A stretch of 63,676 nt of DNA from Desulfobacterales bacterium. Lineage in GTDB: Bacteria; Desulfobacterota; Desulfobacteria; Desulfobacterales; SpSt-501. The stretch is taken from NCBI GenBank assembly GCA_030834695.1, contig JAUQXK010000119.1, positions 1 to 63,676 of the forward strand, written 5' to 3'. Of the stretch, positions 21,136 to 46,969 are shown one piece after another (the stretch's first letter is position 1; every line of letters begins with the position of its first letter). Position numbers and translations under genes: made by a program. The notes beneath the pieces are model-generated. The model was not told where the DNA came from. It worked only from the letters and a program-made list of their open reading frames with translations, and ran no database searches.

Positions 21136-21657
21136 TCATTTCTTGAGAATGACCGGCTGGGGATCAAATTGGCCGGAGGTCACCTGCGCCCAGAAGGTCT
21201 GCTCGTCTTCCATCCACTTCGATCCGAATTTCTTGTTGAAGAACCCCCCGAGCCGCTGGAACATCTTCTGAACGTTCGAGCCGTGGGCCAGGGTCATGAC
21301 GTCTTCCAGGAAGGCGGCGATGTCGATCATCTTCTCCTTCGGGATGTAGGCGCGCGCGCCCATCTCGATGGATTTCTTGAGCGCATCGGCCGAAAGAGCA
21401 TGCGCGGTGAGCATCACGGTCGGAAAACCCAGGTGGACGGAGGCATTGAGCAGGTCGAATCCCCGTACGCCCATGATGTCCAGGATGACGGCATCGTAGC
21501 TCCATGAGCGCAGCAAGTGAAAGCCGGTCTCGTAATCCGTGGCGCGGTCGAGGGTCAGGCCGGCGTATTCCCCGAGCAGGTCCGCCAGCGTGTCGAGCAC
21601 GTCCGGTTCGTCGTCCACGGCCAGGATTCGTTTATTTTCCAGTACGCTGGGTGCCAT
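21136..21657 (-). CDS. Atypical response regulator with conserved C-terminal RLGG-FG extension
   Basis: This 173-residue protein has an N-terminal receiver (AVDDEPD, phospho-Asp60 in VILDIMGVRG). The usual Pro after the Asp loop is missing: DIMGV in place of D-x-x-MP. Thr and Lys positions are seen in VMLTAHA and YIPKE. Beyond the receiver, residues 135-156 (QRLGGFFNKKFGSKW...FW) match the tail of the receiver at 29285-29842, so the tail is a conserved element rather than a random end. It overlaps the end of the acyl-CoA synthetase gene by 26 nt and has its own GGAGACAAACC site. No DNA-binding domain is present. Confidence 0.85.
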   Translation of the reverse strand: MAPSVLENKRILAVDDEPDVLDTLADLLGEYAGLTLDRATDYETGFHLLRSWSYDAVILDIMGVRGFDLLNASVHLGFPTVMLTAHALSADALKKSIEMGARAYIPKEKMIDIAAFLEDVMTLAHGSNVQKMFQRLGGFFNKKFGSKWMEDEQTFWAQVTSGQFDPQPVILKK

Positions 21658-28382: not shown

Positions 28383-28509
28383 CCTGCACCCCCTTTTTAG
28401 TCGAAGTGGCATTTTTAGATGCGCCAACATGAGAAAAAAATTAAATGAAAGCCGTTTAGCAAGAATAGAAACGATCAGATTTTAAAATTTAACTTTTTAA
28501 CTTGTGAGC

Positions 28510-28524
28510 GCTATAATATAGCTG
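28510..28524 (-). promoter_or_regulatory. Candidate operator upstream of the liv operon (shared 15-mer)
   Basis: Read toward the gene it is CAGCTATATTATAGC, containing the perfect palindrome GCTATA-T-TATAGC. Related 15-mers lie upstream of the iron-sulfur/flavin pair (35031-35045) and dctP (45625-45639) in the same orientation to their genes. A TTGATT lies 6 nt upstream of it. Its role as a regulator site is inferred from recurrence only. Confidence 0.45.
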
Positions 28525-28557
28525 TAAAAAAATCAAGTGTTTTTTTTAGTCGGCTGA

Positions 28558-28687
28558 GCCAGCCATGGCGCGCGGCGCCACTTTATCGGCAAGAAAGTTT
28601 TTTTGTGGGAGAGGCTTTCAGCCTCGATCGTCGCGGCTGGAAAGCCGCTCCCACAAAAAATGACCCAACTTACTTGAAAGGGTCAAG
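28558..28687 (+). repeat. Dispersed repeat R2, copy 1
   Basis: This 130-nt element starts GCCAGCCATGGCGCGCGGCG. It contains a long imperfect hairpin, TTGTGGGAGAGGCTTTCAGC paired with GCGGCTGGAAAGCCGCTCCC, and ends GACCCAACTTACTTGAAAG. A second copy in the same orientation lies at 46583-46712. It sits in the 340-nt divergent gap 28383-28722 between livJ and the thioesterase gene. Apart from the candidate operator nothing else is recognised there. Confidence 0.85.
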
Positions 28688-28722
28688 ATAGATAAGAAAG
28701 AAAGGAAGTTGAGAGGTGCTCA

Positions 28723-29145
28723 ATGGATGATGCCATCAAGGCGGCCATCGCCGATGCTGTGACGCGGGAGCCCTTTGCACGATCCTTCGGAATCGAGCTG
28801 CTCCTCCTGGAAGACGGGTTTTCCCGGGTGGAAATGACCTACGACCCGGCGCGGCAGAACAACATCTACGGCCGCGCGCACGGGGGGGCGGTGTTCGGGC
28901 TGATCGACGAGGCATTTGAGACGGCGGCCCAGACCGACGGCACCGTGGCAGTGGCCATGAACGTCAACGTGACCTATATCGCCAGTCCGGAGCCTGGAGC
29001 CCGCCTATGGGCCGAAGCCCGGCGCATGGCCCAGACCAAACGCACGGCAACCTACGATATTCGCGTCGGCGATGCGAACGGGCGGCTGATCGCGGTCTGT
29101 CAGGCGCTGGCCTTCCGCACCGGAAAGCCCATTCCCTTTTTATGA
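28723..29145 (+). CDS. PaaI-type hotdog-fold acyl-CoA thioesterase
   Basis: This 140-residue hotdog-fold protein is predicted to hydrolyse acyl- or aryl-CoA thioesters. The family signature RAHGGAVFGLIDEAF includes the conserved HGG and the Asp/Glu in the central helix; MNVNVTYIASPEPGARLWAEA is the following strand region. GAGAGGTG precedes the ATG. It is divergent from the liv/acyl-CoA synthetase operon across a repeat-bearing promoter region, which suggests a role in releasing CoA from stalled intermediates of the same pathway. The exact substrate is unknown. Confidence 0.9.
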   Translation: MDDAIKAAIADAVTREPFARSFGIELLLLEDGFSRVEMTYDPARQNNIYGRAHGGAVFGLIDEAFETAAQTDGTVAVAMNVNVTYIASPEPGARLWAEARRMAQTKRTATYDIRVGDANGRLIAVCQALAFRTGKPIPFL

Positions 29146-29230
29146 AAGCAGCCTTTTATTGCTCCGGCAGTAAAATATGTTCAATGCGGCCCGATCACTC
29201 ATCGGCGCCTTCCAAGTTTGTTTCGGATGT

Positions 29231-29268
29231 CGCCTGCCCTCGCCGCAACGGCTACGCGCAGGCAGGCG
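29231..29268. terminator. Inverted repeat between convergent genes
   Basis: CGCCTGCC (29231-29238) is complementary to GGCAGGCG (29261-29268). On the plus strand GCTTCGAATTTTA follows. It lies between the end of the thioesterase gene and the end of the receiver gene and could end transcription of one or both. The T-run is weak. Confidence 0.35.
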
Positions 29269-29284
29269 CTTCGAATTTTAAAGC

Positions 29285-29842
29285 TTATATACCTTTGCCC
29301 AAGATTTTGGGGTCGTGCTTCAGCCGCTCCTGGATCCCCTTGCCGATCTGGTAAGTGCGGCTGAACTCCGACCAAAACTCCCGATCCCTGGCTTGCCAGT
29401 CCGGCCCGAAGCGCTTATCGAAATAGCCGCCCAGCCGCTCGAACAGAAGCTTCCAGGGCGGCTCGCCGCTCTCGTAGGCCTTTAGCAAGCTGTTCAACAG
29501 ATCTTCCAGCTCGGCCAGCGTTTCCTTCGGCAGATAGGAGATGGCACCCTTGCGAATGGACTCCATCAGGGTCTCCGGGTTGATGGCATGGGCGGTCAGC
29601 ATAACGGTGGGGATGCCCCGATCGACCGTCTCTTCGAGCAGTTTCAGCCCGTTGACGCCCATGATGTCCAGAACCGCGAGGTCGTAGGGATGCTCCCTGA
29701 TTTTGCGGGAGGCTGTCTCGTAATCGGCCGCCCGGTCCACATGAGCGTCTTCCAGAATGTCTGCGATGGTGTCCAGAATGTCTTTCTCGTCATCCACGAC
29801 CAGCACATGCTTGCCCTTGAGGTAGGATTTTGTATCCGCCAT
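29285..29842 (-). CDS. Atypical response regulator with conserved C-terminal RLGG-FG extension (paralogue)
   Basis: This 185-residue protein has receiver motifs VVDDEKD, phospho-Asp59 in VLDIMGVNG (again without the canonical Pro), VMLTAHA and YLPKE. Residues 136-157 (RLGGYFDKRFG..W....FW) match the tail of the receiver at 21136-21657, and the tail here is longer by about 25 residues. It is last in the MFS-ACT-kinase-kinase operon, 64 nt after the small kinase, with AAGGAG upstream. No DNA-binding or enzymatic output domain is recognised, so the tail may be a docking element. Confidence 0.86.
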   Translation of the reverse strand: MADTKSYLKGKHVLVVDDEKDILDTIADILEDAHVDRAADYETASRKIREHPYDLAVLDIMGVNGLKLLEETVDRGIPTVMLTAHAINPETLMESIRKGAISYLPKETLAELEDLLNSLLKAYESGEPPWKLLFERLGGYFDKRFGPDWQARDREFWSEFSRTYQIGKGIQERLKHDPKILGKGI

Positions 29843-29906
29843 CTGCGATCTCCTTGCTTGTGGCAGCGCTCGTCGGCTGCCGTCTGATCAATTGCGGGTG
29901 GAGGGA

Positions 29907-30710
29907 CTAAGGCTGTTCCAGCTTCAGCGGCAATGTCAGGCGGAATGTCGCTCCCGCACCCTTGCGGCTGCTGACCTCGATGTCACCGCCCAGAGACCGG
30001 GCCATGATCAGCGACCCGGCCAGCCCGATCCCATGGCCCTTGCGCTCGACCATGGAACACTCCTTAACCTGAGCGTAGCGTTTAAAAATAAGCTCATGGT
30101 GGTCGGGCTCGATCCCCGGGCCGTCGTCGATCACCGCTACCGCCAACCGGTCGTCCCGAACGTCCATGTGCACGTCGATCCGCTGCCGGCGATGATGCAG
30201 CGCGTTCTTAAACAGGTTGCCGGCGATCTGGCGAAACTTGGTTTCATCCTGGAACATCTCGATGGCCGCCGCGGCGGCCGGCAGATGCAGGAAGATGCCG
30301 TTGCGGTTCAACAGAGCGATGAGCTCGGCTTCGACCTGATACTTGCCGATCGCTTCGGAGGCCGGCCCGGTCACGGTCTCCAAAGCATCCTTGAGCGCCT
30401 GCTGCAGCGAGGTGAGCGCCGTGAAGCGACGGCAGACCAGGCAGCCGGATTCGGATCGACCGATCTCCAGCAGATCGTTCAGAATCCCCCAGGCCTTGCG
30501 GGTGTTGCGCAGGCTGCGCATCAGCGTGTTGGACTGCTTGGTGGTGAGCGGTCCGTACTTATCCTGCTTTTCCAGCACCGTACGCAGACCGGTTTCGATG
30601 ATCGCAATCGGGTCCTTGAGTTCGTGAATCAGGAACTCGATGCTGATTTCCTGAAAAAACCCGGCCGTCGCCACCGTGGTTCCAGATGGTCTGTCGTTGG
30701 AAGCACTCAT
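29907..30710 (-). CDS. Soluble histidine kinase (DHp-HATPase only)
   Basis: This 267-residue kinase starts at the ATG 30708-30710, preceded by GGAGGAG. The longer open frame overlaps the upstream kinase gene and is not needed. The DHp has FLIHELKDPIAIIETG (His29). The HATPase has the N-box QIAGNLFKNALHH, G1 VIDDGPGIE and G2 GHGIGLAGSLIMARSLGG. There is no sensor or membrane segment, so it probably works with the larger kinase 35 nt upstream or responds to a protein partner. The receiver 64 nt downstream is the obvious target. Confidence 0.88.
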   Translation of the reverse strand: MSASNDRPSGTTVATAGFFQEISIEFLIHELKDPIAIIETGLRTVLEKQDKYGPLTTKQSNTLMRSLRNTRKAWGILNDLLEIGRSESGCLVCRRFTALTSLQQALKDALETVTGPASEAIGKYQVEAELIALLNRNGIFLHLPAAAAAIEMFQDETKFRQIAGNLFKNALHHRRQRIDVHMDVRDDRLAVAVIDDGPGIEPDHHELIFKRYAQVKECSMVERKGHGIGLAGSLIMARSLGGDIEVSSRKGAGATFRLTLPLKLEQP

Positions 30711-30745
30711 ACCGGACTCTCCTCCGCCGATTGAAGGTGACCGCA

Positions 30746-33112
30746 TCAAGATGTTGCCGGCACCGGGTCCGCCGCGGCGGCGAACCGGACGGTGACGATG
30801 GTGCCGCCGGTTTCGCTGCATTGGTCGGGGTGGCTCAAATGCCCGCATCCGCCGACATCCCCCGGGCACTCGTCCTTGTCGTTGGGAATGAACCGACAGC
30901 GCGTTGAGTTCATGAGAATCTTGAACCCGTAACGCTCGGCGAACATCTGCATGCGCAACAGGTCGAAGCCCTTCCCGCCGGCCTTGAAATCATACGGGCG
31001 GCGGGTGGAGTATTGCAGCGGTTCATAGGCTGTGAAAAAATTGCCGAAAATCAATTGCTGGTTTTCCACGGTGATGCCGACCCCGCTGTCCCGGATTTCA
31101 AGTTCCGGCCCCGCATTCCCCCTGCGGACGATGACCCGGACCTCGCCGCCGTCCGGGGTGTTTTCCACCGCGTTGCGGACCAATCCCTCGACGACCTTGC
31201 CCAGCACGTCGGCCGGAACAAACACCGGAGGCGTGTCTTCCAGGCGGGTCTCCAACCGCACCCGGCGGTGCTCGAATTGGGGTTTGAGAATTTTGACGGA
31301 TTCGCCCGTAAACCGCATGAGGTTTATGTTTTCGGGGCGCGCGTCCCGCGGCCCGAACAGCCAGTCGATGCGGCGGCGCAACCGGTCGGTGACGCTTTCC
31401 TCTCCGAAAGCTTCGGCCGCCAGCGCCTCCAACTCGTCGGTGCACTGGTCCAACAGCACCGACAGCATGCGATGAGGCGTCACGTCCTTTTCCTGCAGCA
31501 GGTCTTCGATCTGGTATTGCATGTCCAGCAGGCGTTGAAGATTGCGCCGGGCGCGATCCAGTGTTGTCTCCCACCGTCCGCCGCTGCTCAGCGCGGCCAG
31601 CTGCTTGGCCATCAGATTCAGCGATGCGGACAGCACCGACAGCGGCGTCTTGAGCTCGTGGGACAGGTGATGGATCACGCGGTCCTTGGCGCGGTTCAGG
31701 CTCTTGACCGCTTGAAGCGATCGCTCCAGCGCCTCGTTGATGCCGGCGTTCTCGATCGGCAGCGACACGAGGTTGGCCAGGGTCGAAAGCAGCGCCAGGT
31801 CGCTTTCGGTAAAAGGGCCGTCTTTCTTGTTCACGGCGCACAGAACGCCGATCATGCGTTCCTGCGTGACCAATGGAACATCTAACACGCTGCGCGTGCG
31901 GTAACCGGCCTTTTCATCCACCCGGGCGAAAAAGAACGGGTCTTGCGAAGTGTCGTTGACCATCAGCGGCTTGCCGCTTCGATACACTTCTCCCGCGACT
32001 CCCTTGTCCACGGGAAACCGGATCTCCTTCATGCGCTGGCCGGTATCCAGGTTGTCAAAGACGGACTCGCGGAAGAAAAACTCTTTCCGATCCTCGTCCA
32101 GAAGGATCACGCTCGCGCCCTCGACGTCGAGCAACTGCCGCACCTCGCGCGTGATGAACTCCAGGCGCGCGTCGAGGGTCCGGAATTGATACAACGCCCG
32201 AGCGATGCGGAACAGGGCCTGATTGACGCGCGCGGTATGCTTGTCCTGGGTCACATCCCGCAGCGTGATGACCTGCCCCGCCGGTCGACCGGCTTCATCG
32301 TAAAAAATGGCGCCGTCGATGACGATGTCGAGCAGGCGGCCGTCCTTGGTCAGACGCCGGGTTTCGAAATTGTGGATGACTTTTTCGCGGTACAGCCGTG
32401 CGAGCCCCTCGCGGGTCTGGGCCCTGCAATCCTCCGGGACGAAGGGGATGATTTTGCCCTGGAGTTCCTCTAGGCTCCAGCCGAACACCCTTTCGAAGGC
32501 CGGATTCAAATAGGACACCGTGCTGTCCTGATTGAACACGAAGACCGGATCCGGCAAGAAATTGAGAAAGGCGCGATAGCGCTGTTCGGCCTGCCGGCTG
32601 GTTTCGGACAGTTCCAACGCACACGTTTGTGAGGCCTGCAACGCTTTCTGGGCGAGGTGTCGGTCGGTGATGTCGCGGGCGATGCCTCGAAAACCGGTCT
32701 TGCGACCGCGGGCATCCGTAATCAGCTTGGCGGATATCTCCAGAAAACGCCGTTCGGAATCCGGGCGGATGATCTCCCAGGTCATCTCGACGCTGCCCCC
32801 TTCCCGAAAGATCCGGTTGAAGGCCTCAAAGGCGATCCGGGCATTCTCCGCGTCCATGAACTCCGCGTAGTTACGATCCTGAATCGCCCGGCGCGGATGG
32901 CCGAAAATTCGGCACAAGGCGTCATTGAAGAACTTGAAATTCCCGCGCAGGTCGACCTCGTAAAACCCGTCCGCGACGTCTTCGATCAGGACCCGATAGC
33001 GTTCCTCCTGCACACGGGTCGTCTTTTTTCGCGGCGGGACGGCCGACGAAGGAGTCGCTGCCGGGCGCAAGCCCGCCACCGAATCCATTTTTCTGGTTCT
33101 TCCGGAAGCCAT
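30746..33112 (-). CDS. PAS-PAS-GAF histidine kinase with Cys-rich insertion in the ATPase domain
   Basis: This 788-residue soluble kinase starts at the ATG 33110-33112 behind AAAGGAG. It has two PAS domains (about 35-290), a GAF domain (about 315-475), a DHp with HHLSHELKTPLSVLS, and an HATPase with the N-box GLVRNAVENTPDGG and G1 EIRDSGVGI. The G2 region reads GGKGFDLLRMQMFAERYG and is followed by an insertion with four cysteines (CRFIPN.., ECPG, GCGH, DQC; codons 30818-30898) before the last strand TIVTVRF. The cysteines suggest metal or redox control of the catalytic domain. It is third in the MFS-ACT-kinase-kinase-receiver operon. Confidence 0.9.
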   Translation of the reverse strand: MASGRTRKMDSVAGLRPAATPSSAVPPRKKTTRVQEERYRVLIEDVADGFYEVDLRGNFKFFNDALCRIFGHPRRAIQDRNYAEFMDAENARIAFEAFNRIFREGGSVEMTWEIIRPDSERRFLEISAKLITDARGRKTGFRGIARDITDRHLAQKALQASQTCALELSETSRQAEQRYRAFLNFLPDPVFVFNQDSTVSYLNPAFERVFGWSLEELQGKIIPFVPEDCRAQTREGLARLYREKVIHNFETRRLTKDGRLLDIVIDGAIFYDEAGRPAGQVITLRDVTQDKHTARVNQALFRIARALYQFRTLDARLEFITREVRQLLDVEGASVILLDEDRKEFFFRESVFDNLDTGQRMKEIRFPVDKGVAGEVYRSGKPLMVNDTSQDPFFFARVDEKAGYRTRSVLDVPLVTQERMIGVLCAVNKKDGPFTESDLALLSTLANLVSLPIENAGINEALERSLQAVKSLNRAKDRVIHHLSHELKTPLSVLSASLNLMAKQLAALSSGGRWETTLDRARRNLQRLLDMQYQIEDLLQEKDVTPHRMLSVLLDQCTDELEALAAEAFGEESVTDRLRRRIDWLFGPRDARPENINLMRFTGESVKILKPQFEHRRVRLETRLEDTPPVFVPADVLGKVVEGLVRNAVENTPDGGEVRVIVRRGNAGPELEIRDSGVGITVENQQLIFGNFFTAYEPLQYSTRRPYDFKAGGKGFDLLRMQMFAERYGFKILMNSTRCRFIPNDKDECPGDVGGCGHLSHPDQCSETGGTIVTVRFAAAADPVPATS

Positions 33113-33134
33113 CGCGGCTCCTTTAAACCCCAAG

Positions 33135-33578
33135 TTAACCTTCGGTTTCGAGGATACCGAAACTCTCGGCGTCGAGCAGCTTCAGCCCGTTGGTCTGGAG
33201 CACCGCAATTGCTCGATCATTATCGCTGAACCGGAAGATCATGACCGCTTTACCGGACGAAAACCGCAGGAAGGCGTACATGAACACGACGTTGACGTTG
33301 GCCTCGGTCAACGGTTTGAGCAGCTGGGCGAGGCTGCCGGGCCGGTCCTCGATTTCAACGGCGACGACATCATTGACATAAGCGGGGATCTGCAGCTTCA
33401 TCAAAACGCGCCTGGCCTTGGCCACATCCGAAACCAGAAGCCGCAGCTGTCCGAACGCCCCCGTGTCCACCAGGTTGAGCGCTCTCAGGTTGATGCCGGC
33501 CTTGCCCAGGGCTTCGGTCACTTCAAACAGCCGGCCGGGCGCATTTTCAATCGAAACCACGATCTGTTTCAGTTTCAT
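33135..33578 (-). CDS. Tandem ACT-domain protein
   Basis: This 147-residue protein is made of two ACT domains (about 1-68 and 69-142). Each opens with a conserved glycine turn: SIENAPGRLFEVTEAL and EIEDRPGSLAQLLKPL. Such small proteins bind amino acids or similar ligands and act as allosteric partners. In many anaerobes they sit next to phenylacetate-CoA ligases; here no ligase is adjacent. It lies 17 nt after an MFS transporter gene and 22 nt before a sensor kinase, and AAGGAG precedes the ATG. It may report substrate level from transporter to kinase; this is inference. Confidence 0.9.
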   Translation of the reverse strand: MKLKQIVVSIENAPGRLFEVTEALGKAGINLRALNLVDTGAFGQLRLLVSDVAKARRVLMKLQIPAYVNDVVAVEIEDRPGSLAQLLKPLTEANVNVVFMYAFLRFSSGKAVMIFRFSDNDRAIAVLQTNGLKLLDAESFGILETEG

Positions 33579-33595
33579 AAACCCATCTCCTTGTG

Positions 33596-34873
33596 CTATC
33601 GATGCTTAATGGATTCCCGAACCATGCAGCTGGCCGCAAAAGCGACCAGGGAACACCCGAACAAGGCCAGAAACGCCTGCTGGTAACCGGCCAGAGTAAA
33701 CGCACCGTCAACCGTCCGGCCTTGAGCTTCAAGCAGATGACCGAGAACGGGTTGAAAGACGGCGCCGCCCGCAAACGGAAACAGGTTGACCAGGCCGGTG
33801 GCGGTCCCGGCCATCTGGACCGGGAAAAGCTCCTTGTTGCTGGTGAAACCGATCACCACGACGGCGCTTGTAAACATTCCCAGCCCGAAGCACAGCGCAT
33901 AGAGCGTGATCGTCGAAACCTCGGCCGTCCGAAACGCCAACAGGGCGCTGAGGAGGACCGTAATGAGGCTGGAGATGATCAGGACCGGCTTGCGGGCCTT
34001 GAAGATCCGGTTGGACGCATAGCTCAAAAGCGGACTGCCCACGATCATCCCGACGGCCAGCATGGACAGCACGTGCGAGGCCTGCTCCCGGCTGAGATGA
34101 TGAACCTGGATCAGATAGGGCCCGCCCCACAGACCACCGAATGAAAAAAACACGGCACAGTCAAAGAAAAACCATGCGGCCAGCGGCCAGAAGGCCGTAC
34201 ACCCGATCACCCGGCGGATGGCATTGCGAAGCGAGATGGGGTCGGGCCTGGACTGCTGGTGTTCGGCCGGCGACGGCCAACCGAGTTCCTGCGGTCGGTC
34301 GCGCACGATGACCCACACCAGCACCGCCAGGGCCAGCGTGAGCGCGCCCACCACGACAAACGACATGCGCCACCCGATCCAGGCGCTGAGCACCGCCAGG
34401 GGAGCGGCGGCGATCAGAGACCCCAGCCCGCCGATGGCCATCAGGATGCCGGTCATCAGAGCGAACTCGCCCACCCGAAACCACTCGGCGAGAATCTTCA
34501 TGGTCGGCACGAACAGCATGGCCACGCCGATTCCGACCAGTGCCCGGCCGGCCACGGCCCAGAACGCCGACGGCGCATAACCGAGCAGAACCGAACCGCC
34601 GAATGCCACGCCGAAAAAGATGGTGATGGTCTTGCGGGGTCCCCACGAATCCGAAAGCAGGCCGGCCGGCAACTGCATCAGCGCATAGGGATAGAAGTAA
34701 GCCGCCGACAGCAGCCCTGTCAAGGTTCCGCCGGTCTTCAGGTCCTGCATCATGTCCACCGCTACGATGGCCGGGCACAGGCGGTGGAAGTAGACCAAAA
34801 CGTATCCGCCGGATAGAACCCAGAAGATCGCCCAGCGGTAACGCATCGCTTTACGCAGACCAGTGTTTTCCAT
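33596..34873 (-). CDS. Major facilitator superfamily transporter
   Basis: This 425-residue transporter has about 12 membrane segments. The MFS loop 2-3 signature is GLLSDSWGPRKT, and an arginine-rich segment after TM2-3 (GRALVGIGVAMLFVPTMK) is typical of the family. It resembles organophosphate/organic-anion symporters (GlpT/NarK-like shape), but the substrate is not identifiable. GGAGAG precedes the ATG. It is the first gene of the operon that continues with an ACT protein, two kinases and a receiver, and is divergent from the iron-sulfur/flavin pair. It could be the transporter that the signalling genes monitor. Confidence 0.9.
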   Translation of the reverse strand: MENTGLRKAMRYRWAIFWVLSGGYVLVYFHRLCPAIVAVDMMQDLKTGGTLTGLLSAAYFYPYALMQLPAGLLSDSWGPRKTITIFFGVAFGGSVLLGYAPSAFWAVAGRALVGIGVAMLFVPTMKILAEWFRVGEFALMTGILMAIGGLGSLIAAAPLAVLSAWIGWRMSFVVVGALTLALAVLVWVIVRDRPQELGWPSPAEHQQSRPDPISLRNAIRRVIGCTAFWPLAAWFFFDCAVFFSFGGLWGGPYLIQVHHLSREQASHVLSMLAVGMIVGSPLLSYASNRIFKARKPVLIISSLITVLLSALLAFRTAEVSTITLYALCFGLGMFTSAVVVIGFTSNKELFPVQMAGTATGLVNLFPFAGGAVFQPVLGHLLEAQGRTVDGAFTLAGYQQAFLALFGCSLVAFAASCMVRESIKHR

Positions 34874-35005
34874 GCCCGCTCTCCATCTGGCTTGAACGAT
34901 TGATCGAGCTTGAATGTGGGCCGGGCAGGCCCTACCTCTTTGTAGACGATCCGGCAGGGTGCCCTAAAAACTCAGGCTGGTATCCGATTCATTTTTTAAT
35001 TGAAC

Positions 35006-35045
35006 TTGACAAATTTTTCAAGATATAAAATAGCTACTTTATAGC
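35006..35045 (+). promoter_or_regulatory. Promoter and candidate operator of the iron-sulfur/flavin pair
   Basis: TTGACA (35006-35011) is a consensus -35. An A/T-rich -10 region lies near 35026-35034 (TAAAAT or AAATAG, neither at perfect spacing). The 15-mer TAGCTACTTTATAGC (35031-35045) matches the motifs upstream of livJ and dctP and would overlap the transcription start. The ATG follows 20 nt later behind AAGGGA. Confidence 0.5.
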
Positions 35046-35065
35046 CAATCGCTAAGGGATTGTTC

Positions 35066-35578
35066 ATGCCGAAAAACAACAGTGCCATCCTCCTCATTGA
35101 TTCTGAAAAATGCACCGGGTGCCGCTTGTGCGAAATGGCCTGTTCCATGCTGCACCACGGAATTTTAAGCCCTCATCGCGCCCGGCTGCGCGTGCTGCGG
35201 TTTGACAACGGCCGCTGCAACGTACCGGTGGTCTGCCAGGCCTGTGAAGACGCGCCCTGCATCAAGACCTGCCCCATGAACGCCCGCCGCCGAATCGGCA
35301 ACCAAGCCGTGATCACGGATGAAGACCGTTGCATCGGCTGCCGCGCCTGCGTCTATGTTTGCCCTTTCGGCGCTCCGGTGGTCAACCCGGACGACGGCAA
35401 GACCCTGACCTGCGACCGGTGCTCGGATGAGGACGGACCGCCGTGGTGCGTCAGGGCGTGCCGCGATTGCGGCGCCCTGAAAACCGTAACGGCCGAGGAG
35501 GCGGTTGCACGCAAATCCAGGCAGCGCGCCGAACAGGCGCGGGCCGCCTACCCGCCGAAAAAGCGACCCGCCGCATGA
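35066..35578 (+). CDS. Four-cluster 4Fe-4S ferredoxin-like subunit (HycB/AorA type)
   Basis: This 170-residue electron-transfer protein has 16 cysteines in four groups: CTGCRLCEMAC, CQACEDAPCIKTCP, CIGCRACVYVCP and CDRCSD...CVRACRDC, enough for four [4Fe-4S] clusters. It matches the small iron-sulfur subunit of enzymes such as AOR (AorA), formate hydrogenlyase (HycB) or DMSO reductase-type oxidoreductases. The ATG at 35066 has AAGGGA upstream; a TTG two codons earlier is open. Its stop overlaps the next gene's ATG (ATGA). No signal peptide is seen, so it is cytoplasmic. Confidence 0.9.
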   Translation: MPKNNSAILLIDSEKCTGCRLCEMACSMLHHGILSPHRARLRVLRFDNGRCNVPVVCQACEDAPCIKTCPMNARRRIGNQAVITDEDRCIGCRACVYVCPFGAPVVNPDDGKTLTCDRCSDEDGPPWCVRACRDCGALKTVTAEEAVARKSRQRAEQARAAYPPKKRPAA

Positions 35579-36840
35579 ACGTGCTGATCATCGGAAACGG
35601 CATCGCCGGCAATGAAGTCGCTTTCTTCCTGAGGCGGGCACGGCCGGACTGCCGGATCACGATCCTTTCGGCCGAGCGCTTTCCGGAATACGATCCCTGC
35701 TCGCTGCCCTATTTCATCGGCCGGGACGTGCCCCGGGACGCCGTTTTCCGCAAGGACTGGCAGGACTACCGCACGCACCGCATCCAGTTGGTTCTCGATC
35801 ATCCGGCGACCGCCATCGACCCGGCGGCCAGAGAAGTCACCACGGCACCGGGGATGAGGTTCGGCTACGACCGGCTGGTATTGGCCCACGGCGGAAGCCT
35901 CTATATCCCGCCCATCGAAGGGATCGACAGGGACGGCGTTCACAGCTGCAAGCAATTGGGGTCCGCCGATCGGCTGGATCAATCCGGCGGGTCCGCCGCG
36001 GTGGTGATCGGCTCGGGCGCCATCGGGATCGAAGCCGCGGAAGCCCTCAAGAAGCGGGGCTACGAGGTCACCATCGTCGAGCTGCTCGACTGGATTCTGC
36101 CGGCGCTCTTCGATCCGGAGACCTCGCAGCGGCTGGCTGCGAATCTGGAAGGCTGCGGCATCCGGGTCTTGACGTCGGAGAAAGTGCTGCGCATCGAAGG
36201 CGCGGAAAAAGTCTCTGCCGTCGTCACGGACAAGCGCCGCATCCCGTGCGACACCGTGGTCATCGCCACCGGCGTCGTGCCCGGCAAGGCGCTGGCCCAA
36301 ACGGCCGGAATCGACGTGGCTCGCGGCATCCGCGTCGACGCGCATCTGCAGACCAGCGCGGCCGGCATTTACGCCTGCGGAGACTGCGTGGAGACGGTCG
36401 ACGCCTGCACGGGCGAAGACGCCATGTTCCAGCTCAAACACAACGCCGTCGAGCAGGCCCGGGTGGTCGCACGCAACCTGATCGGCGAACCGGCCGCCTA
36501 TCCCGGCGCATGGGCGTTCGCCCGGGCGCATTTTTTCGACACCCATGCCGTTACCTTCGGAAAGACCACTCGGGCCACCCAATGCGAGCTGGGTCAGCTT
36601 GAAATCATCGAGCGCGACGAGGGCGCGGACTACCTGCGAATCATCACCAAGGAAGGACGGGTGGTCGGAGGCCAGGCCATCGGCCGATTCGGCGACGTCA
36701 TCGGGCTTTTCATCGGCGCCATGTGGCGCAAGGACGCGATTCCGGATATCCGGGCGAACTGGCCCCACATCATCCGCAAAGGCTCGCCCTACCCATGGAC
36801 CCACCGCCAGCTCGGAGAGTCGATCGGCTTAAAACCTTGA
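35575..36840 (+). CDS. FAD/NAD(P)-dependent oxidoreductase (AorC/CoA-disulfide-reductase-like)
   Basis: This 421-residue flavoprotein starts at the ATG overlapping the ferredoxin stop. It shows an FAD Rossmann motif VLIIGNGIAGNE, an NAD(P) motif VVIGSGAIGIEAAE and the second FAD motif GIYACGDCVE. The DPCSLPYFIG stretch (Cys42) matches the redox-active single cysteine of the NADH oxidase/CoA-disulfide reductase class. With the four-cluster protein it would exchange electrons between NAD(P)H and ferredoxin-type carriers. In Aromatoleum, AorA and AorC flank the tungsten enzyme AorB; here no AorB-like gene is in the window. The pair may serve an enzyme encoded elsewhere. Confidence 0.88.
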   Translation: MNVLIIGNGIAGNEVAFFLRRARPDCRITILSAERFPEYDPCSLPYFIGRDVPRDAVFRKDWQDYRTHRIQLVLDHPATAIDPAAREVTTAPGMRFGYDRLVLAHGGSLYIPPIEGIDRDGVHSCKQLGSADRLDQSGGSAAVVIGSGAIGIEAAEALKKRGYEVTIVELLDWILPALFDPETSQRLAANLEGCGIRVLTSEKVLRIEGAEKVSAVVTDKRRIPCDTVVIATGVVPGKALAQTAGIDVARGIRVDAHLQTSAAGIYACGDCVETVDACTGEDAMFQLKHNAVEQARVVARNLIGEPAAYPGAWAFARAHFFDTHAVTFGKTTRATQCELGQLEIIERDEGADYLRIITKEGRVVGGQAIGRFGDVIGLFIGAMWRKDAIPDIRANWPHIIRKGSPYPWTHRQLGESIGLKP

Positions 36841-36867
36841 CGGTGCCTCAGGCGCCGTCAAGGTTTT
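36831..36867. terminator. Bidirectional intrinsic terminator
   Basis: AAAACCTTGACGG (36831-36843) pairs perfectly with CCGTCAAGGTTTT (36855-36867). On each strand the stem ends in T's. It overlaps the stop codons of the convergent oxidoreductase (36838-36840) and CMD (36866-36868) genes and should end transcription from both sides. Confidence 0.85.
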
Positions 36868-37255
36868 ATTCATTCCAGAGGCCTTTTTCGATCAAGACGG
36901 TTCGCAGGGTTTTCAATGCCTGGTTGGTGGCCGGCATGCCGCCGTAGACGAAGGTTTGGAAGATGACTTCGGCGATCTCCGCCGGGCTGCAACCGACGTT
37001 GAGCGCCGCCTGGATGTGGAGCTTGAGCTCATCCAGCCGGGAGAGCACGGTCAGGCAGGCCACCGTGACCAATTGCCGGGTCCGGTGGGGGATCTTCTCG
37101 CGGGCATACATCTGACCGGTGATGAAAAGGGAAAGGTCTTTCGCCAACTCCTTGTCGAAGGACTTCCACAGATCAAAGGGCCGCTCGTCCGCGACGCCCT
37201 TGAAATAGAGTTCAGCGGTCTTCTTGGTCTTTTCGACAATATCCTTGTCCGCCAT
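36866..37255 (-). CDS. Carboxymuconolactone decarboxylase (CMD/AhpD-like) family protein
   Basis: This 129-residue all-helical protein belongs to the CMD family: KIPHRTRQLVTVACLTVL, LKLHIQAALNVGCSPAEIAEVIFQTFVYGGMPATNQAL. The AhpD CxxC peroxidase pair is absent; a lone Cys sits at the corresponding helix. It is therefore unlikely to be an alkylhydroperoxidase. AGGAGAAGC precedes the ATG. It is the last gene downstream of ETF-QO. The function is unknown; a role in the local acyl-CoA pathway is possible by position only. Confidence 0.87.
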   Translation of the reverse strand: MADKDIVEKTKKTAELYFKGVADERPFDLWKSFDKELAKDLSLFITGQMYAREKIPHRTRQLVTVACLTVLSRLDELKLHIQAALNVGCSPAEIAEVIFQTFVYGGMPATNQALKTLRTVLIEKGLWNE

Positions 37256-37371
37256 GCTTCTCCTGATGAGCTGAAACGAAAACCGTCAAGTCGTTAAACC
37301 GGGAAAATCCCCGGGGAAGGGAAAACGGTTTACGGAAAGCGGTTCCCGTTTTAGCGGGTTAAGAAGTCCGA

Positions 37372-39021
37372 TCATACGATTGAATACTTCGGTCCCCCGC
37401 CCCCTTCGGGGCAGGTCCAGATGATGTTCTTAAAGGGGTCCTTGATCTCGCACGTTTTGCAGTGCAGGCAGTTCGAAGGGTTCAATTTCAGCCGCGGCAG
37501 GCCCTCGTCGGTCGTGTCCATTTCATACACCTGGCCGGGACAGAACCGGGTGCAGGGGCTGCGGAAAGTCTCCCAGCAGCGCGTGACGCACAGGTTCGCG
37601 TCGGGGATGACCAGATGGCACGGCTGGTCTTCTTCGTGCTTGGTTCCGGAGAGATAGACGCCGGTCAGCTTGTCGAGATAGAGTTGGCCGTCGAGGTCTT
37701 GGACCGGTGGCGGCGGCGCCCCGCGGCCCGGCTTCAAGCTGTCCGCATCGTCGCTGATTTTCATCGGATCGACGAACCCGCGGCCGCCGCTGACGAATTG
37801 AGCGCCCAGGGCGATGAACTTGGCCACTCCCTTGCGCGACAGGGCCTGGCCGAAATTGCGGGCGGCGTAAAGCTCGCCTTGAATCCAGCTGCCCTCCAGT
37901 CTGACGCGGTAGTCGTCGAGAACCGACGCGCGAACGTCGTCCTTCGTGACGGCCGCCAGGATCGTCTCGGCCGCCAGCATGCCGGATTTCATGGCGGTGT
38001 GAATGCCTTTCAGCCGCTGCACGTTCAGCATCGACGCACTGTCGCCGACAAAGACCGCACCGTCCACGGCCAGCTGCGGCAGAGTGTACCAGCCGCCCGC
38101 CGCCAGGGTCTTGGCCCCCTGCTGCAGCACCTTGCCGCCGCCGATGATGTCGGCGATCAGCGGATGCTTCTTGAACCTCAAAAACTCCTGATAGGGCTCC
38201 AGCAGCGCATCCTCGTAATCCAGCCCCACCACCAGCCCGAGGGACACCCGGTTGGCTTTCATCCGATAAAGAAACCCGCCGCCCCTGGTGTTGAGCCCCA
38301 GAGGATAACCGAAGGTGTGCACCACTGTGAACGGTGCGTTCAGAAAGGGGTTGGATGCCGGGATTTCGATCACTTCCTTGATGGCGGTCTCGAACACCTG
38401 GGGCATTCGGCCGGTGAAGATACCCAGTTTGTTGCCGACTTCTCGGATCAGGCTCCCCTTGGGCCCTTCACCGAAAACCGTCACCTTGGCCAGCAGATCG
38501 ACCCCCGGTTCGAAATTGGACTTGGGTTTGCCCTCCTTGTTGATGCCCTTGTCGCCCGTACGAACCCCGATCACACGCCGGCCGGACTCGTCGTAAAGCG
38601 CTTCCACGCCGGCAAACCCCGGAAAGACATTCACCCCGAGTTCCTCGGCGATGGATCCGAGCCAGGCGCAGAACTTCGACAGGCTGATGATGAAACAGCC
38701 TTCGTTGTGCATGTAGGGGGGGACATAAGGCAACCGGAATTGACCGCCGGCCGTCAGATAGAAGACCGCATCGCGCAGGTCCGTTTCCTCGATCGGGCAG
38801 TCCCGCTCCCGAAAATCCGGCAACAGTTCCCGCAGCGCCCGCGGATCCAGTACGGCCCCGCTCAGGGAATGGGCGCCGATCGATTCGGCCTTTTCGATAA
38901 CGGCGACTTCAATTTCCCGGCCATTCTGCTGAGCGAGTTTTTTCAGGTGGATGGCACCGGCGAGATTGGCCGGCCCCGCGCCCACGAAGAGAACGTCGAA
39001 TTCGAGCTGTTCGCGTTGCAT
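37372..39021 (-). CDS. Electron transfer flavoprotein-ubiquinone oxidoreductase (ETF-QO)
   Basis: This 549-residue membrane-associated enzyme takes electrons from reduced ETF and passes them to the quinone pool (menaquinone is expected in this group). The FAD site is VLFVGAGPANLAGAIHLK. The C-terminal cluster domain has the cysteines CVTRC, SPCTRFC and, in the canonical form, NCLHCKTCEIKDP followed by CPEGGGGPKYS. The length matches the family (about 550). It follows etfA by 162 nt on the same strand, completing the electron path from the acyl-CoA dehydrogenase. Confidence 0.96.
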   Translation of the reverse strand: MQREQLEFDVLFVGAGPANLAGAIHLKKLAQQNGREIEVAVIEKAESIGAHSLSGAVLDPRALRELLPDFRERDCPIEETDLRDAVFYLTAGGQFRLPYVPPYMHNEGCFIISLSKFCAWLGSIAEELGVNVFPGFAGVEALYDESGRRVIGVRTGDKGINKEGKPKSNFEPGVDLLAKVTVFGEGPKGSLIREVGNKLGIFTGRMPQVFETAIKEVIEIPASNPFLNAPFTVVHTFGYPLGLNTRGGGFLYRMKANRVSLGLVVGLDYEDALLEPYQEFLRFKKHPLIADIIGGGKVLQQGAKTLAAGGWYTLPQLAVDGAVFVGDSASMLNVQRLKGIHTAMKSGMLAAETILAAVTKDDVRASVLDDYRVRLEGSWIQGELYAARNFGQALSRKGVAKFIALGAQFVSGGRGFVDPMKISDDADSLKPGRGAPPPPVQDLDGQLYLDKLTGVYLSGTKHEEDQPCHLVIPDANLCVTRCWETFRSPCTRFCPGQVYEMDTTDEGLPRLKLNPSNCLHCKTCEIKDPFKNIIWTCPEGGGGPKYSIV

Positions 39022-39133
39022 GGTGAACGTGTCTCGTGTTGGGTGGTTTGAGTTTGGGGTTTAGGGTCGGGTGTTACGCTGTTGGGGCGGTTTAGGGGCC
39101 GGGAGGCGTATCGCGAACCTGATTCGATGGGGC

Positions 39134-39154
39134 CGAGGGTCCCCTGAACCCTCG
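39134..39154 (-). other. Small intercistronic inverted repeat
   Basis: CGAGGGT (39134-39140) pairs with ACCCTCG (39148-39154) in the etfA/ETF-QO gap. There is no U-tract, so it is not a clear terminator. It may only stabilise or separate the messages. Confidence 0.35.
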
Positions 39155-39183
39155 ACCCCTTGAATCCTTGCCTTCTCGACCCC

Positions 39184-40149
39184 TTACCCTTTCAGCTTCT
39201 TCACCGCCTCGGTGACTGCGGGCAGGATCTGGAAGATGTCGCCGCACGCGCCGTAGTCCGCCTTTGAAAAAATAGGCGCCTCCGCGTCCTTGTTGATGGC
39301 CACGATCACCTTGGAGGTCGACATGCCGGCCAGGTGCTGGATCGCTCCCGAGATGCCGCAGGCCACGTACAACGCCGGCGACACCACCTTGCCGGTCTGC
39401 CCCACCTGATCCCCGTGTTTGCGCCAGCCCTCGTCCACCGCCGAACGCGACGCCCCCACGGCCCCGTTCAGCGCCGCCGCCAACTCCTCAATCGGGACGA
39501 AGTTGCCGCCGGTCCCGCGACCGCCCGAGACGATCACGTCCGCCTCGGTCAACTCCACCTTGCTGCCAGCATCCATCGTCTTGGCTACCACCGCCGTACG
39601 GATCTCGCCCAGCTGCGGGGCGGGCTTCTCGACCGCACTTTCTTTCGGCGATTCGGCGATCCGCATCACGTTCGGCCGCACGGCGATGATCTGCGGAGAA
39701 CCCTGGATTTGAACGTCGGCGAAAATCTTCCCGCCGAACATCGGCCGCGTGCAGGTGAGCACTCCGCCCTGAAGTGACACGGCCGTACAATCCATCGCAA
39801 GCCCCGCATCCAGGCGCGCCGCCAGACGCGCTGCCAGGTCCTTGCCCTGTGCCGTGGCCCCGGTGAGAATCACCGCCGGCGCGGCACCGCTGAGCCAGCC
39901 CGCCAGAACATTGGTGTATGCGTCGGTCCGGTAATCGGCAAGCTCCGGGGCGTCCAGGACCACGACGGTGTCCGCACCGTAGGACTTGACTTCAGCCGCC
40001 AGCGCGTCCATCCCCGACCCCATGACGACCGCCGTCAGCTGGCAACCCAGCCCGTCGGCCAGCCGCCGGCCTTCGCTGACCACCTCATAGGACACCTTGC
40101 GGAACCGGCCATCCCGCTGTTCGGTAATTGCAACCACGCCTTGTGACAT
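39184..40149 (-). CDS. etfA: Electron transfer flavoprotein alpha subunit
   Basis: This 321-residue FAD-binding ETF subunit has the FAD-domain motifs VSGGRGTGG and [18 protein letters not shown], and then [28 protein letters not shown]. The N-terminal domain begins [26 protein letters not shown] precedes the ATG, 22 nt after etfB. It would carry electrons from the acyl-CoA dehydrogenase to ETF-QO. The short N-terminus without ferredoxin domains, plus the adjacent ETF-QO, favours ordinary rather than bifurcating ETF. Confidence 0.96.
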
Positions 40150-40171
40150 ATCCGTCTCCTTTCCAGCATCC

Positions 40172-40960
40172 TCAGATCAACCGGGCTTCTTCGTGCAGCA
40201 CTCGGACCAGCTCAGCGGCGATGGCAGCCGGCGTCTCCCCTGCGATCATGCGCACGGCCTTGCGCTCCGGCGGCAGGCGCAGCGCCTTGACCACGACCTT
40301 GCGCCCGGCGGCGCCGACCCGTGCCGGATCCAGCCCCAGTGCGGCGACGGTCTTCACCTCCAACGGCTTTTTCTTCGCCTTCATGATGCCGGGCAGGGAC
40401 GCGTAGCGCGGCTCGTTCAGGCCCCGCTGCGTGGTGAACAGGGCCGGCAGCGGCGCTTCCACTGTAACCGAACCGCCCTCCACCGCCCGCTGGCATCGGA
40501 TCCGGCCCTCCAGCAGCTCCGCCTTGGACACCAGTGAAACATGCGGGATGCCGAGAAATTCCGCCACCGCCGCACCCACCTGGTAGTTGTCCTCGTCCAC
40601 GGCCCGCTGCCCCGCGATAATCAAATCAAACGGCAGGTTTTTCACTGCAGCGGCCAGAATGCGCGCGGTCGCCAGCGCATCGCCGCCTTCCGCCGCGGGG
40701 TCGTTGACCAGCAGCCCCTTGTCGGCGCCCATGGCCAGCGCCGTGCGGATGGTCTCCTGGGCCTTCTGCGCCCCCACGGAAAGAACGGTCACCGTGCCGC
40801 CCTTGGCCTCCTTGATCCGCAGAGCCTCTTCCACCGCCAGCTCGTCATACGGGTTCATGATCCACTTGATGTCGTCCTTCTTGATCGACACGCCGTCGCC
40901 GGCAATCTGCACCAGCGATTCCGTGTCCGGCACCTGCTTCACCAAGACCACGATGTCCAT
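40172..40960 (-). CDS. etfB: Electron transfer flavoprotein beta subunit
   Basis: This 262-residue ETF beta subunit opens MDIVVLVKQVPDTESLVQI and contains the AMP/FAD-site motifs ALAMGADKGLLV and DLIIAGQRAVDEDNYQVGA. The latter holds the loop (GxQAxDgDxxQVG type) typical of the family. AAAGGAG precedes the ATG. It is directly upstream of etfA and downstream of the acyl-CoA dehydrogenase, with 115 nt between. Confidence 0.96.
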   Translation of the reverse strand: MDIVVLVKQVPDTESLVQIAGDGVSIKKDDIKWIMNPYDELAVEEALRIKEAKGGTVTVLSVGAQKAQETIRTALAMGADKGLLVNDPAAEGGDALATARILAAAVKNLPFDLIIAGQRAVDEDNYQVGAAVAEFLGIPHVSLVSKAELLEGRIRCQRAVEGGSVTVEAPLPALFTTQRGLNEPRYASLPGIMKAKKKPLEVKTVAALGLDPARVGAAGRKVVVKALRLPPERKAVRMIAGETPAAIAAELVRVLHEEARLI

Positions 40961-41075
40961 GCAGAACTCCTTTCCCTATGAGAAAATCGGCAAAGAGCAG
41001 AGTGCAGCGAGCAAAGGGTTTAAAAAGAAAGGAATCAACGTCTTCTTTACTCTATGCCCAATGCCCTATGCTTTA

Positions 41076-42239
41076 TCACCGGTTCGCCTTGCGGATCCCG
41101 AGCTGATCCAAAGCGATGATCCATTTGCAGATGTTGGCCGATCCTTCGACCATGGTGTAGGTCGGAGCATCCCGGTAATACCGGGCCACGGGGTATTCCG
41201 TTGAGTACCCGTAAGCGCCTAAAATGCGCATGGCGTAAGTGGCGCACTTGGTGACGACTTCGCCGGCGAAATATTTGGCATGGGCCACGTCCAGGCCGTT
41301 TTCATGCCGGCCCTGGTCCTTGGCCCAGGCGGCTTTATAGACCAGCAGCCGCGCGGCCTCGATCTCGGCCGACATCTGCGCGATCAGGTCCTGGTTCATC
41401 TGAAATTCACCGATCTTCTTGCCGAACTGCTTGCGGGTATTGGCGTATTTCACGGCGCTGTCGAGGCAGGCCTGAGCCAGGCCCACGGCGCCGGCGGCTG
41501 CCGACAGGCGGGTTTGGTTGAGCGAACTGAACACGATCTTGGCGCCGTCCCCGGGCGCACCCAGAATGTTCTCCTTGGGCACGCGGCAGTCGGAAAGGAA
41601 GACCTCGCCGGTGGGAGAGGAGTGCGAACCCATCTTCTCCAGCTGGGACGTCTTGACGCCGTTGAAATTTTTAGTCTCCAGCACGAAGGCCGACAGCCCG
41701 CGGGATTCCTTGGACCGGTCGGTATAAGCGTAGTAGATGAGCACATCGGAAATGTGCGCGTTGGAGATCCAGGTCTTGGATCCGTTGAGCAGCCAGTGGT
41801 CGCCCTTGTCTTCGGCCGTGGACCCCATGGCCATGACGTCCGAGCCGGCGTCCGGCTCGGTGATGGCAAAACCGCCCAGATACTCGCCGCTGACCAGTTT
41901 GGGGATGTACTTTTTGCGCACGGCCTCGCTGCCGTACTTGTAAATGGTGTAGGCGCAGCCCAGCATCTGCATGTTCACCTGCACCCGCAGCGAACTGGAG
42001 GCCCGGGCAATCTCCTCGGTGATGATCATGGCCGCCAGGAACCCCATGCCTTCGCCGTCGTATTCTTCCGGGATCACCGCCCCGAAGAAGCCAAGTTCCC
42101 CCATGGGTTTGATGGCTTCCTTGTACGGAAAATGGTGCTTGGCATCCCATTCGTCAGCATACGGTGCGATTTTCTTCTCCGCGAACTCCCGCACCGCCTT
42201 CCGCAGCATTTCCAGCTCCTTTGAAAGCGCAAAATCCAT
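41076..42239 (-). CDS. Acyl-CoA dehydrogenase, closest in recall to non-decarboxylating glutaryl-CoA dehydrogenase
   Basis: This 387-residue flavoenzyme oxidises an acyl-CoA to the enoyl-CoA and reduces ETF. Family motifs are GFAITEPDAGSDVMAM, WLLNGSKTWISNA, RKQFGKKIGEFQMNQD and ILGAYGYSTEYPVARYYRDA, with the catalytic-base Glu in MVEGSANICKWIIALDQLG. From memory, the start MDFALSKELEMLRKAVREF and long stretches of the body match the glutaryl-CoA dehydrogenase of Desulfococcus multivorans very closely. That enzyme yields glutaconyl-CoA without decarboxylation. I cannot run the alignment. GGGAGGAG precedes the ATG at 42239. The neighbours (TRAP importer, glutaconate-CoA-transferase-like genes, ETF) fit glutarate use. 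Confidence 0.92.
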   Translation of the reverse strand: MDFALSKELEMLRKAVREFAEKKIAPYADEWDAKHHFPYKEAIKPMGELGFFGAVIPEEYDGEGMGFLAAMIITEEIARASSSLRVQVNMQMLGCAYTIYKYGSEAVRKKYIPKLVSGEYLGGFAITEPDAGSDVMAMGSTAEDKGDHWLLNGSKTWISNAHISDVLIYYAYTDRSKESRGLSAFVLETKNFNGVKTSQLEKMGSHSSPTGEVFLSDCRVPKENILGAPGDGAKIVFSSLNQTRLSAAAGAVGLAQACLDSAVKYANTRKQFGKKIGEFQMNQDLIAQMSAEIEAARLLVYKAAWAKDQGRHENGLDVAHAKYFAGEVVTKCATYAMRILGAYGYSTEYPVARYYRDAPTYTMVEGSANICKWIIALDQLGIRKANR

Positions 42240-42393
42240 ACCTTGATCTCCTCCCTTTGAAATGATCCACCACAGCCTGGATGGAGCTAAATACCGGCCG
42301 CGATAATAGCGGGCAGATCCGTTAAAGTCAACGCCGCCCACGCAGCACGATATGCCCCTATTCGGAGTCCCTCGTCCCGTGAATGGCCTAAGA

Positions 42394-42425
42394 CAGCACG
42401 GGGGCGGACAGGTCCGGCCCCCGCA
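42394..42425. other. GC-rich hairpin between dctM and the acyl-CoA dehydrogenase
   Basis: GCACGGGGGCGGAC and GTCCGGCCCCCGCAC form a strong near-perfect stem in the 279-nt gap 42240-42518. No U-tract follows on the minus strand, so it is at best a factor-dependent terminator or an mRNA-processing site between the transporter and enzyme genes. The rest of the gap shows no gene. Confidence 0.45.
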
Positions 42426-42518
42426 CTTCCAAGCACCAGCTGAAAAAGATGCCCGATGGTCCATTCCATCCGTGGCGCGCCTTGGATGAAAAAATTTCAG
42501 CCAGCGTTCTAAAGCGGA

Positions 42519-46936: not shown

Positions 46937-46969
46937 ATAACGCTTAAAACCTGAAACTTAAAACCGTCA

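Follow-up and report, generated by a model that had tools for sequence, protein, structure and literature searches.

Pairing of a HisKA histidine kinase with a single-domain receiver of the CheY/Spo0F type is a known arrangement, and in UhpABC-type systems a sensor of the major facilitator superfamily (MFS) is found together with a kinase and a receiver. Here we describe five adjacent genes for an MFS transporter, a tandem ACT protein, two histidine kinases (HK1 and HK2) and a receiver with a conserved tail, in DNA of a Desulfobacterales bacterium (SpSt-501; assembly GCA_030834695.1, contig JAUQXK010000119.1, positions 1-63,676, forward strand); this whole stretch of 63,676 nt is called the window. 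A related arrangement occurs in the phenylacetate/phenylpyruvate module of Desulfococcus multivorans, for which the accessible part of PMC5109826 names two sensor histidine kinases and a CheY-like regulator (Dmul_C24760-80), together with a substrate-induced TRAP transporter that is formed with phenylacetate and phenylpyruvate. Another single-domain receiver, FixT, inhibits FixL (accessible part of PMC7078487). With moderate confidence, we regard the genes in the window as a cytoplasmic two-component module that tunes organic-acid uptake and CoA-dependent oxidation in Desulfobacterota, the acid being of the arylacetate/arylpyruvate type or glutarate. The genes and their relevant parts are as follows.

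29285-29842, minus strand: tailed receiver, a single-domain response regulator of 185 aa with a conserved C-terminal tail
29288-29470, minus strand: receiver tail, residues 125-185, with predicted helices
29907-30710, minus strand: HK2, a sensorless histidine kinase of 267 aa, H-box HELKDP
30746-33112, minus strand: HK1, a PAS-PAS-GAF-HisKA-HATPase_c kinase of 788 aa, H-box HELKTP
30818-30898, minus strand: Cys cluster within HK1, toward the end of its catalytic domain, C-X9-CPG-X4-C-X8-C
33135-33578, minus strand: tandem ACT protein of 147 aa, Pfam ACT_8 "ACT domain pair" (PF19571)
33596-34873, minus strand: MFS transporter of 425 aa, Pfam MFS_1

An earlier note on this DNA had described five genes in this order, and we confirmed both the order and the intergenic gaps of 17, 22, 35 and 64 nt from the MFS gene through ACT, HK1 and HK2 to the receiver (starts at 33578, 33112, 30710 and 29842), all on the minus strand. 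Pfam and alignment also bore out its domain calls, namely a transporter, a tandem ACT protein, a PAS-PAS-GAF kinase with a Cys-rich insertion and a sensorless kinase. The start of HK1 was taken as the ATG at 33112, which has AAAGGAG upstream; a TTG at 33133 is an alternative start.

We compared the window with the D. multivorans genome, in which the genes for the receiver, HK2, HK1, DctM, DctQ and DctP directly adjoin one another (2.780-2.787 Mb) and the products are 64, 41, 45, 64, 52 and 71% identical, respectively, to those of the window. The kinases and receiver of this block were matched to Dmul_C24760-80 by position and gene order. As in the window, two kinases and a CheY-like regulator stand next to a TRAP transporter. 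Beyond DctP lie two AMP-ligase genes and genes for a BcrAD/BadFG-type activase, a ketopantoate-reductase-type dehydrogenase and an ACT protein (67% identical) beside a POR-family subunit. The D. multivorans locus differs from the window in that the stretch read holds no MFS gene and that ACT lies 13.6 kb from HK2, behind the CoA-ligase, activase and dehydrogenase genes. On Dmul_C24760-80, the accessible text of PMC5109826 reports neither a domain analysis nor a test of the regulators. The earlier note had stated that no system with this gene set was described, which has to be narrowed: the regulators of the D. multivorans module were already named in 2016, while the set itself was only partly described.

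With the CheY/Spo0F type the receiver shares a canonical phosphorylation site and the lack of a recognised output domain, but the window adds a conserved tail of helices, some 60 residues long, a Cys cluster and a pair of kinases whose H-boxes differ. As in UhpABC, an MFS gene adjoins the kinase and receiver genes, but in the module this gene is optional and its product is far below the UhpC cut-off. An assignment of the MFS protein as a UhpC-type sensor was rejected on the NCBIfam UhpC score of 71.7 against a cut-off of 564 bits, and the NCBIfam families listed for this protein all fell below their own cut-offs. The FixL-FixT system, as far as the accessible text of PMC7078487 goes, has like the window a stand-alone receiver and a four-Cys motif, but the motif is on the receiver in FixT and in the kinase catalytic domain here. 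In searches of the open-licence literature aimed at these points we found no description of the pairing of Cys-cluster kinases (HK1-type, hereafter Cys-kinases) with tailed receivers, nor of the split between HELKT and HELKD H-boxes. The components are of known kinds and their arrangement was partly noted in 2016; new are the pairing, the H-box split, a natural fusion of the two kinases and the excess of receivers over kinases.

We searched genome contigs with the receiver and, from the best 80 of 120 relatives, counted the 43 loci with a receiver identity of at least 59%, leaving out 37. The identity limits were 45% for HK1, 40% for HK2 and 60% for ACT, MFS, DctP and DctM. A locus was eligible if it had enough upstream sequence, which for transporters meant at least 9 kb, and the neighbourhood counts are raw values without a random-neighbour control. 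Of 39 eligible loci, 32 had HK2 no more than 2 kb from the receiver; both kinases were near the receiver in 26 of 34, and ACT stood at most 7 kb away in 16 of 29. Transporter orthologs anywhere in the locus (n = 24) were less frequent: TRAP in 9 loci, MFS in 5 and either in 10. All five genes occurred in 6 of the 43 loci, two of them (L059 and L060) from the window's genus, and ACT, HK1, HK2, the receiver and TRAP occurred together in 8. Because of these counts, we rank the predicted genes as a conserved core of HK1, HK2 and receiver, with ACT as a frequent member and the transporters as optional ones. Conservation of the gene set of the earlier note is thus upheld for the core and, in part, for ACT, but not for the MFS gene.

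Both kinases carry, as far as their sequences tell, the DHp (dimerization and histidine phosphotransfer) phospho-His and the HATPase boxes expected of two-component HisKA kinases. HK1 scored over the Pfam cut-offs for both HisKA and HATPase_c. HK2 scored 82 bits for HATPase_c and remained sub-threshold for HisKA (21.8 bits, cut-off 26.9), and Pfam gave no domain N-terminal to its phospho-His at residue 29. The phospho-His and the N, G1, F and G2 box residues are invariant or nearly so across the HK1 and HK2 alignments. The fourth residue after the His separates the two families. It is Thr in 29 of 29 HK1 sequences (HELKTP in 28, HEIKTP in 1) and Asp in 32 of 32 HK2 sequences (HELKDP or HDLKDP); two more distant HK2-like proteins have Val (L192) and Gly (L251) at this position. 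In HisKA kinases a Thr or Asn four residues after the His is required for phosphatase activity, and the N375D variant of CrdS had no measurable kinase activity (accessible part of PMC3510030). HK1 has the H-E/D-x-x-T/N motif of bifunctional kinase/phosphatases and HK2 does not. Because Asp replaces Thr/Asn, and in view of the CrdS N375D precedent, HK2 should lack phosphatase activity and may be unable to autophosphorylate on its own.

The Cys insertion of HK1, C739-X9-C749-PG-X4-C756-X8-C765, lies C-terminal to the G2 box. Across 25 aligned HK1 sequences C739, C756 and C765 never vary, and C749 is absent from 2. The exact C-X9-CPG-X4-C-X8-C spacing was present in 34 of 39 Cys-kinase loci, several of which had themselves served as rows of the search profile; the remaining five comprise two without the second Cys, one without the Pro, one with a shorter last gap and one unreadable case. 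A profile search of the PDB with the Cys region returned five matches, all with E-values of 0.11 or worse and none across the cluster, and the structure model of the HK1 core was weak, with a predicted local distance difference test (pLDDT) score of 67. In locus L096, from a Desulfosarcinaceae metagenome-assembled genome, a single frame of 807 aa (7561-9981, plus strand) is a natural GAF-HK1-HK2 fusion. HK1 is matched by residues 25-504 with 51% identity and HK2 by residues 549-791 with 45%. The fusion retains the Cys cluster and both H-boxes, and the receiver gene overlaps or follows its open reading frame (ORF).

The receiver matched Response_reg with 50.6 bits, and its D17, D18, D59, T83 and K106 are invariant in 31 aligned rows, as in two-component receivers. 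The earlier note had called it an atypical receiver with a conserved tail. The tail is indeed conserved and has no recognised output domain, but the phosphorylation site is canonical. Across the same rows W149 is invariant, and W130, F134, L137, F141, F145 and G146 are at least 90% conserved. The structure model (mean pLDDT 79) has tail helices at 129-145, 149-152 and 154-175, with confidence dropping toward the end. Pfam returned Response_reg alone and no DNA-binding domain in the C-terminus, which does not place the protein among DNA-binding response regulators. Among the best 50 of 1662 matches in a fold search, none fitted the tail well; matches with a root-mean-square deviation (rmsd) below 5 spanned 115-148 columns, which is the receiver part only, and the longer alignments, with RssB and PorX (168-216 columns), had rmsd values above 12.

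Three side observations concern tailed receivers in other loci. In L246 (3028-6444, plus strand), the tailed receiver is the last domain of a FIST-GAF-HisKA_2/HWE hybrid kinase, adjoined by a Liv-type ATP-binding cassette (ABC) operon. Immediately 3' of the tailed receiver, L104 (10517-11113) and L103 (6183-6833) encode uncharacterised proteins that are about 200 aa long and begin alike; the L104 protein had no Pfam family at 1e-5.

We also surveyed 147 genomes of the class; this survey and the receiver-locus survey share genomes and are not independent. Of 64 HK2 matches, 39 were strong, at one per genome, 15 were weaker and 10 (E > 1e-30) were left out. As neighbours, we entered 36 places of ACT (E up to 4e-46) and 31 of Acd, a glutaryl-CoA dehydrogenase; in the remaining HK2 genomes, inspection by eye placed the Acd rows on different contigs or far off. 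The strong HK2 genes had a Cys-kinase within 2.5 kb in 33 cases, a tailed receiver within 2.5 kb in 25 and an ACT ortholog within 6 kb in 16. Thirteen of the 15 weaker ones had an opposite-strand tailed receiver within 2.5 kb, and one had a Cys-kinase. A catalytic-domain profile (A5) found 86 Cys-kinases in 56 of the 147 genomes, and a tailed-receiver profile (A2) found 146 receivers, also in 56. The two occurred together in 52 genomes (Fisher p = 5e-30, uncorrected for relatedness). Across 198 genomes of the phylum, 23 had a Cys-kinase, 24 a tailed receiver and 23 both. This near-perfect phyletic match points to Cys-kinases and tailed receivers as putative cognate partners.

The numbers of the two partners are unequal. 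Tailed receivers exceed Cys-kinases overall and in 31 of the 56 genomes, and the window's genome has four tailed receivers (two in the window, the others at G000:C114 and G000:C80) for one Cys-kinase, HK1. A listed receiver lies within 3 kb of only 29 of the 86 Cys-kinases. Since nearby receivers are this few and receivers outnumber kinases, a correct pairing would mean that many receivers are served by distant kinases. Tailed receivers adjoin Liv-type ABC, TRAP, CoA-ligase or acyl-CoA dehydrogenase genes in L098, L100, L106, L110, L240 and L249. The receiver surplus (146 against 86) would also suit a receiver that serves the kinases as a sink or inhibits them by feedback, in the way FixT acts on FixL (PMC7078487, accessible part), with the true output regulator elsewhere. 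The absence of a Pfam output domain, the confinement of well-fitting fold matches to the receiver part among the best 50 of 1662, and the receiver that ends the FIST-GAF hybrid kinase of L246 agree with such a role. It is nevertheless made unlikely by the conservation of the tail with its invariant Trp, by the position of several receivers beside different transport or CoA-ligase genes, and by the lack of any recognised DNA-binding regulator within the module.

ACT domains commonly regulate enzymes. The ACT protein of the window matched PF19571 with 80.6 bits (cut-off 23.5) over residues 1-139, as expected of a tandem ACT protein, and by sequence its nearest relative of solved structure is 2f06 (E = 4e-19 over residues 3-138 of 147). 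An ortholog was present in 7 of 7 family genomes compared, with 84-98% identity in the other six. Two further contexts were observed. In L019, from the window's genome, an ACT-pair paralog lies 3' of a PaaK-like ORF (PaaK recognised by eye) without such a kinase. In L243 (5704-6744, plus strand), a gene for a distant ACT protein (27% identical) stands behind an acyl-CoA dehydrogenase-like ORF and 39 nt from the gene of a tailed receiver, and the sole Cys-kinase of that genome is on a different contig. These contexts favour a tie between ACT proteins and both aryl-acid metabolism and tailed receivers; they lend no support to direct action on the kinases. The genes could be passengers of a catabolic locus, the ACT protein regulating enzymes and the kinases answering to redox state only, which the PAS/GAF domains and the Cys cluster could report. 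The L019 paralog and the 23 of 39 strong HK2 loci that lack ACT at 6 kb would fit this explanation. We consider it improbable in view of the ACT genes near the receiver in more than half of the eligible loci (16 of 29) and of the L243 ACT gene close to another tailed receiver.

The surroundings of the module in the window are as follows.

21139-21657, minus strand: second tailed receiver (identity about 44%), preceded by genes for an AMP-ligase and a branched-chain-type ABC transporter
28723-29145, plus strand: hotdog thioesterase, PaaI-like (TIGR02286, 82 bits, below the cut-off of 118.9)
35060-36840, plus strand: divergent from the MFS gene; genes for a ferredoxin-like protein and an FAD oxidoreductase that resemble PadI/PadH of phenylglyoxylate dehydrogenase, with scores below cut-off
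36866-37255, minus strand: carboxymuconolactone decarboxylase (CMD) family protein, also in L059, L060, L066, L087 and L102
37372-39021, minus strand: electron transfer flavoprotein (ETF):quinone oxidoreductase
39187-40149, minus strand: ETF alpha
40175-40960, minus strand: ETF-domain protein, taken as ETF beta
41079-42239, minus strand: glutaryl-CoA dehydrogenase (Acd), Desulfococcus type, NF045552; best PDB match 3mpi
42522-43844, minus strand: TRAP transporter DctM
43893-44462, minus strand: TRAP transporter DctQ
44481-45563, minus strand: TRAP transporter DctP, 71% identical to the DctP adjoining HK1-HK2-receiver of D. multivorans
45753-46529, minus strand: CoA-transferase subunit B; best PDB match 1poi_B, glutaconate CoA-transferase
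46973-47815, minus strand: CoA-transferase subunit A, start uncertain

The module lies downstream of a same-strand catabolic region for CoA-transferase, TRAP, Acd, ETF, ETF:quinone oxidoreductase and CMD, with the TRAP operon 7.6-10.7 kb upstream of the MFS gene. Acd scored 775.6 bits against NF045552 (cut-off 470), which makes it an equivalog of that family. In L066, L069, L193 and L194 the receiver gene stands between DctM and glutaryl-CoA dehydrogenase, and in L066, L193 and L194 CMD-ACT-HK1-HK2 follows further down. In other loci, the genes directly upstream of HK1 are IorA, over its cut-off (765.7 against 650.9), and a POR-family subunit (L197), or a POR-family subunit and a PaaK-like ligase below cut-off (533.8 against 646.3; L200). 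Because of the D. multivorans cluster and the upstream genes of L197 and L200, these contexts favour arylacetate/arylpyruvate-type substrates, with glutarate as a rival at the window's own locus.

A module specific for glutarate/glutaconate would import the acid by TRAP and MFS, activate it by CoA-transferase and oxidise it by glutaryl-CoA dehydrogenase and ETF. The CoA-transferase, TRAP, Acd, ETF and ETF:quinone oxidoreductase genes upstream in the window are those such a pathway would need, and the receiver between DctM and Acd in the four loci above is in line with it. This explanation was demoted to a rival because D. multivorans, whose related TRAP transporter is formed with phenylacetate and phenylpyruvate (accessible part of PMC5109826), pointed to those substrates. 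Acd is also rare near HK2 (6 of 39), and glutaryl-CoA dehydrogenase serves aromatic degradation via benzoyl-CoA as well (PMC13416013, accessible part). Specificity for glutarate/glutaconate thus appears possible but somewhat unlikely.

In the explanation that we prefer, a two-component module for organic-acid uptake and oxidation, HK1 would be the sensing kinase/phosphatase, with its PAS-PAS-GAF region and HELKT box, and HK2 would work with it as a partner that lacks phosphatase activity (HELKD) and perhaps also autokinase activity. The Cys cluster would bind a metal or Fe-S centre, through which redox or metal state would govern phosphorylation. The ACT protein, which the earlier note had proposed to read the transported compound and modulate the paired kinases, may bind an aromatic or other amino-acid-like metabolite and adjust these kinases, and the phosphorylated receiver would act through its helical tail on a protein partner rather than on DNA directly. 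Because receivers outnumber Cys-kinases, the HK1/HK2 pair may serve several receivers at different transport operons.

Several results weigh against this explanation. Acd was within 20 kb of HK2 in only the 6 loci mentioned, three of them from the window's genus. Four of the 56 Cys-kinase genomes lacked a tailed receiver, four of 56 showed the reverse, and 57 of the 86 Cys-kinases had no listed receiver within 3 kb. Several tailed receivers (L101, L105, L108, L111, L113 and L114) had no recognised transport or CoA-ligase neighbour. In the receiver-locus survey, the presence of ACT was only partial, neither a TRAP nor an MFS ortholog occurred in 14 of the 24 loci with at least 9 kb upstream, and neither kinase occurred in 5 of the 34 eligible loci (L062, L077, L088, L090 and L100). 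The HK1-HK2 fusion is limited to one genome. Moreover, according to the accessible part of PMC11887813, the regulators that Desulfobacteraceae have in their catabolic clusters are for the most part activators of the single-component type.

A bolder version is that these proteins form a distinct Desulfobacterota lineage, with an Fe-S- or metal-gated kinase, an obligate, phosphatase-dead partner kinase, and a pair that feeds several tailed receivers at different transporter/CoA-activation operons. We consider this version doubtful; if true, one redox- and metabolite-sensing hub would set substrate choice. Of the carbon that sulfate reducers oxidise in marine sediments, a large share falls to the Desulfobacteraceae, whose catabolic and regulatory networks behind this are called essentially unknown in the accessible part of PMC11887813. 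A kinase pair tied to aryl- or dicarboxylate loci would be a concrete, testable regulator among them, and a Cys cluster in a kinase catalytic domain, together with a HELKT/HELKD split that is sometimes fused in one protein, would extend what is known of HisKA kinases.

Scans of positions 28400-48200 showed 20 terminator-like sites, against 21.7 expected by chance, and 10 sigma-70 promoter-like sites, against 5.5 expected; the latter were not used for any reading. A sigma-54 promoter scan gave 23 matches with at most 2 mismatches, against 31.9 by chance, and lends no support. On the far side of the receiver lie the PaaI-like thioesterase gene (plus strand), a branched-chain-type ABC operon with an AMP-ligase gene and then the second tailed receiver. 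The PaaI-like thioesterase gene is also divergent and next to the receiver in L059, L060, L061, L070 and L081. Relatives of the ferredoxin-like and FAD oxidoreductase genes at 35060-36840 come after HK1-HK2-receiver in L202.

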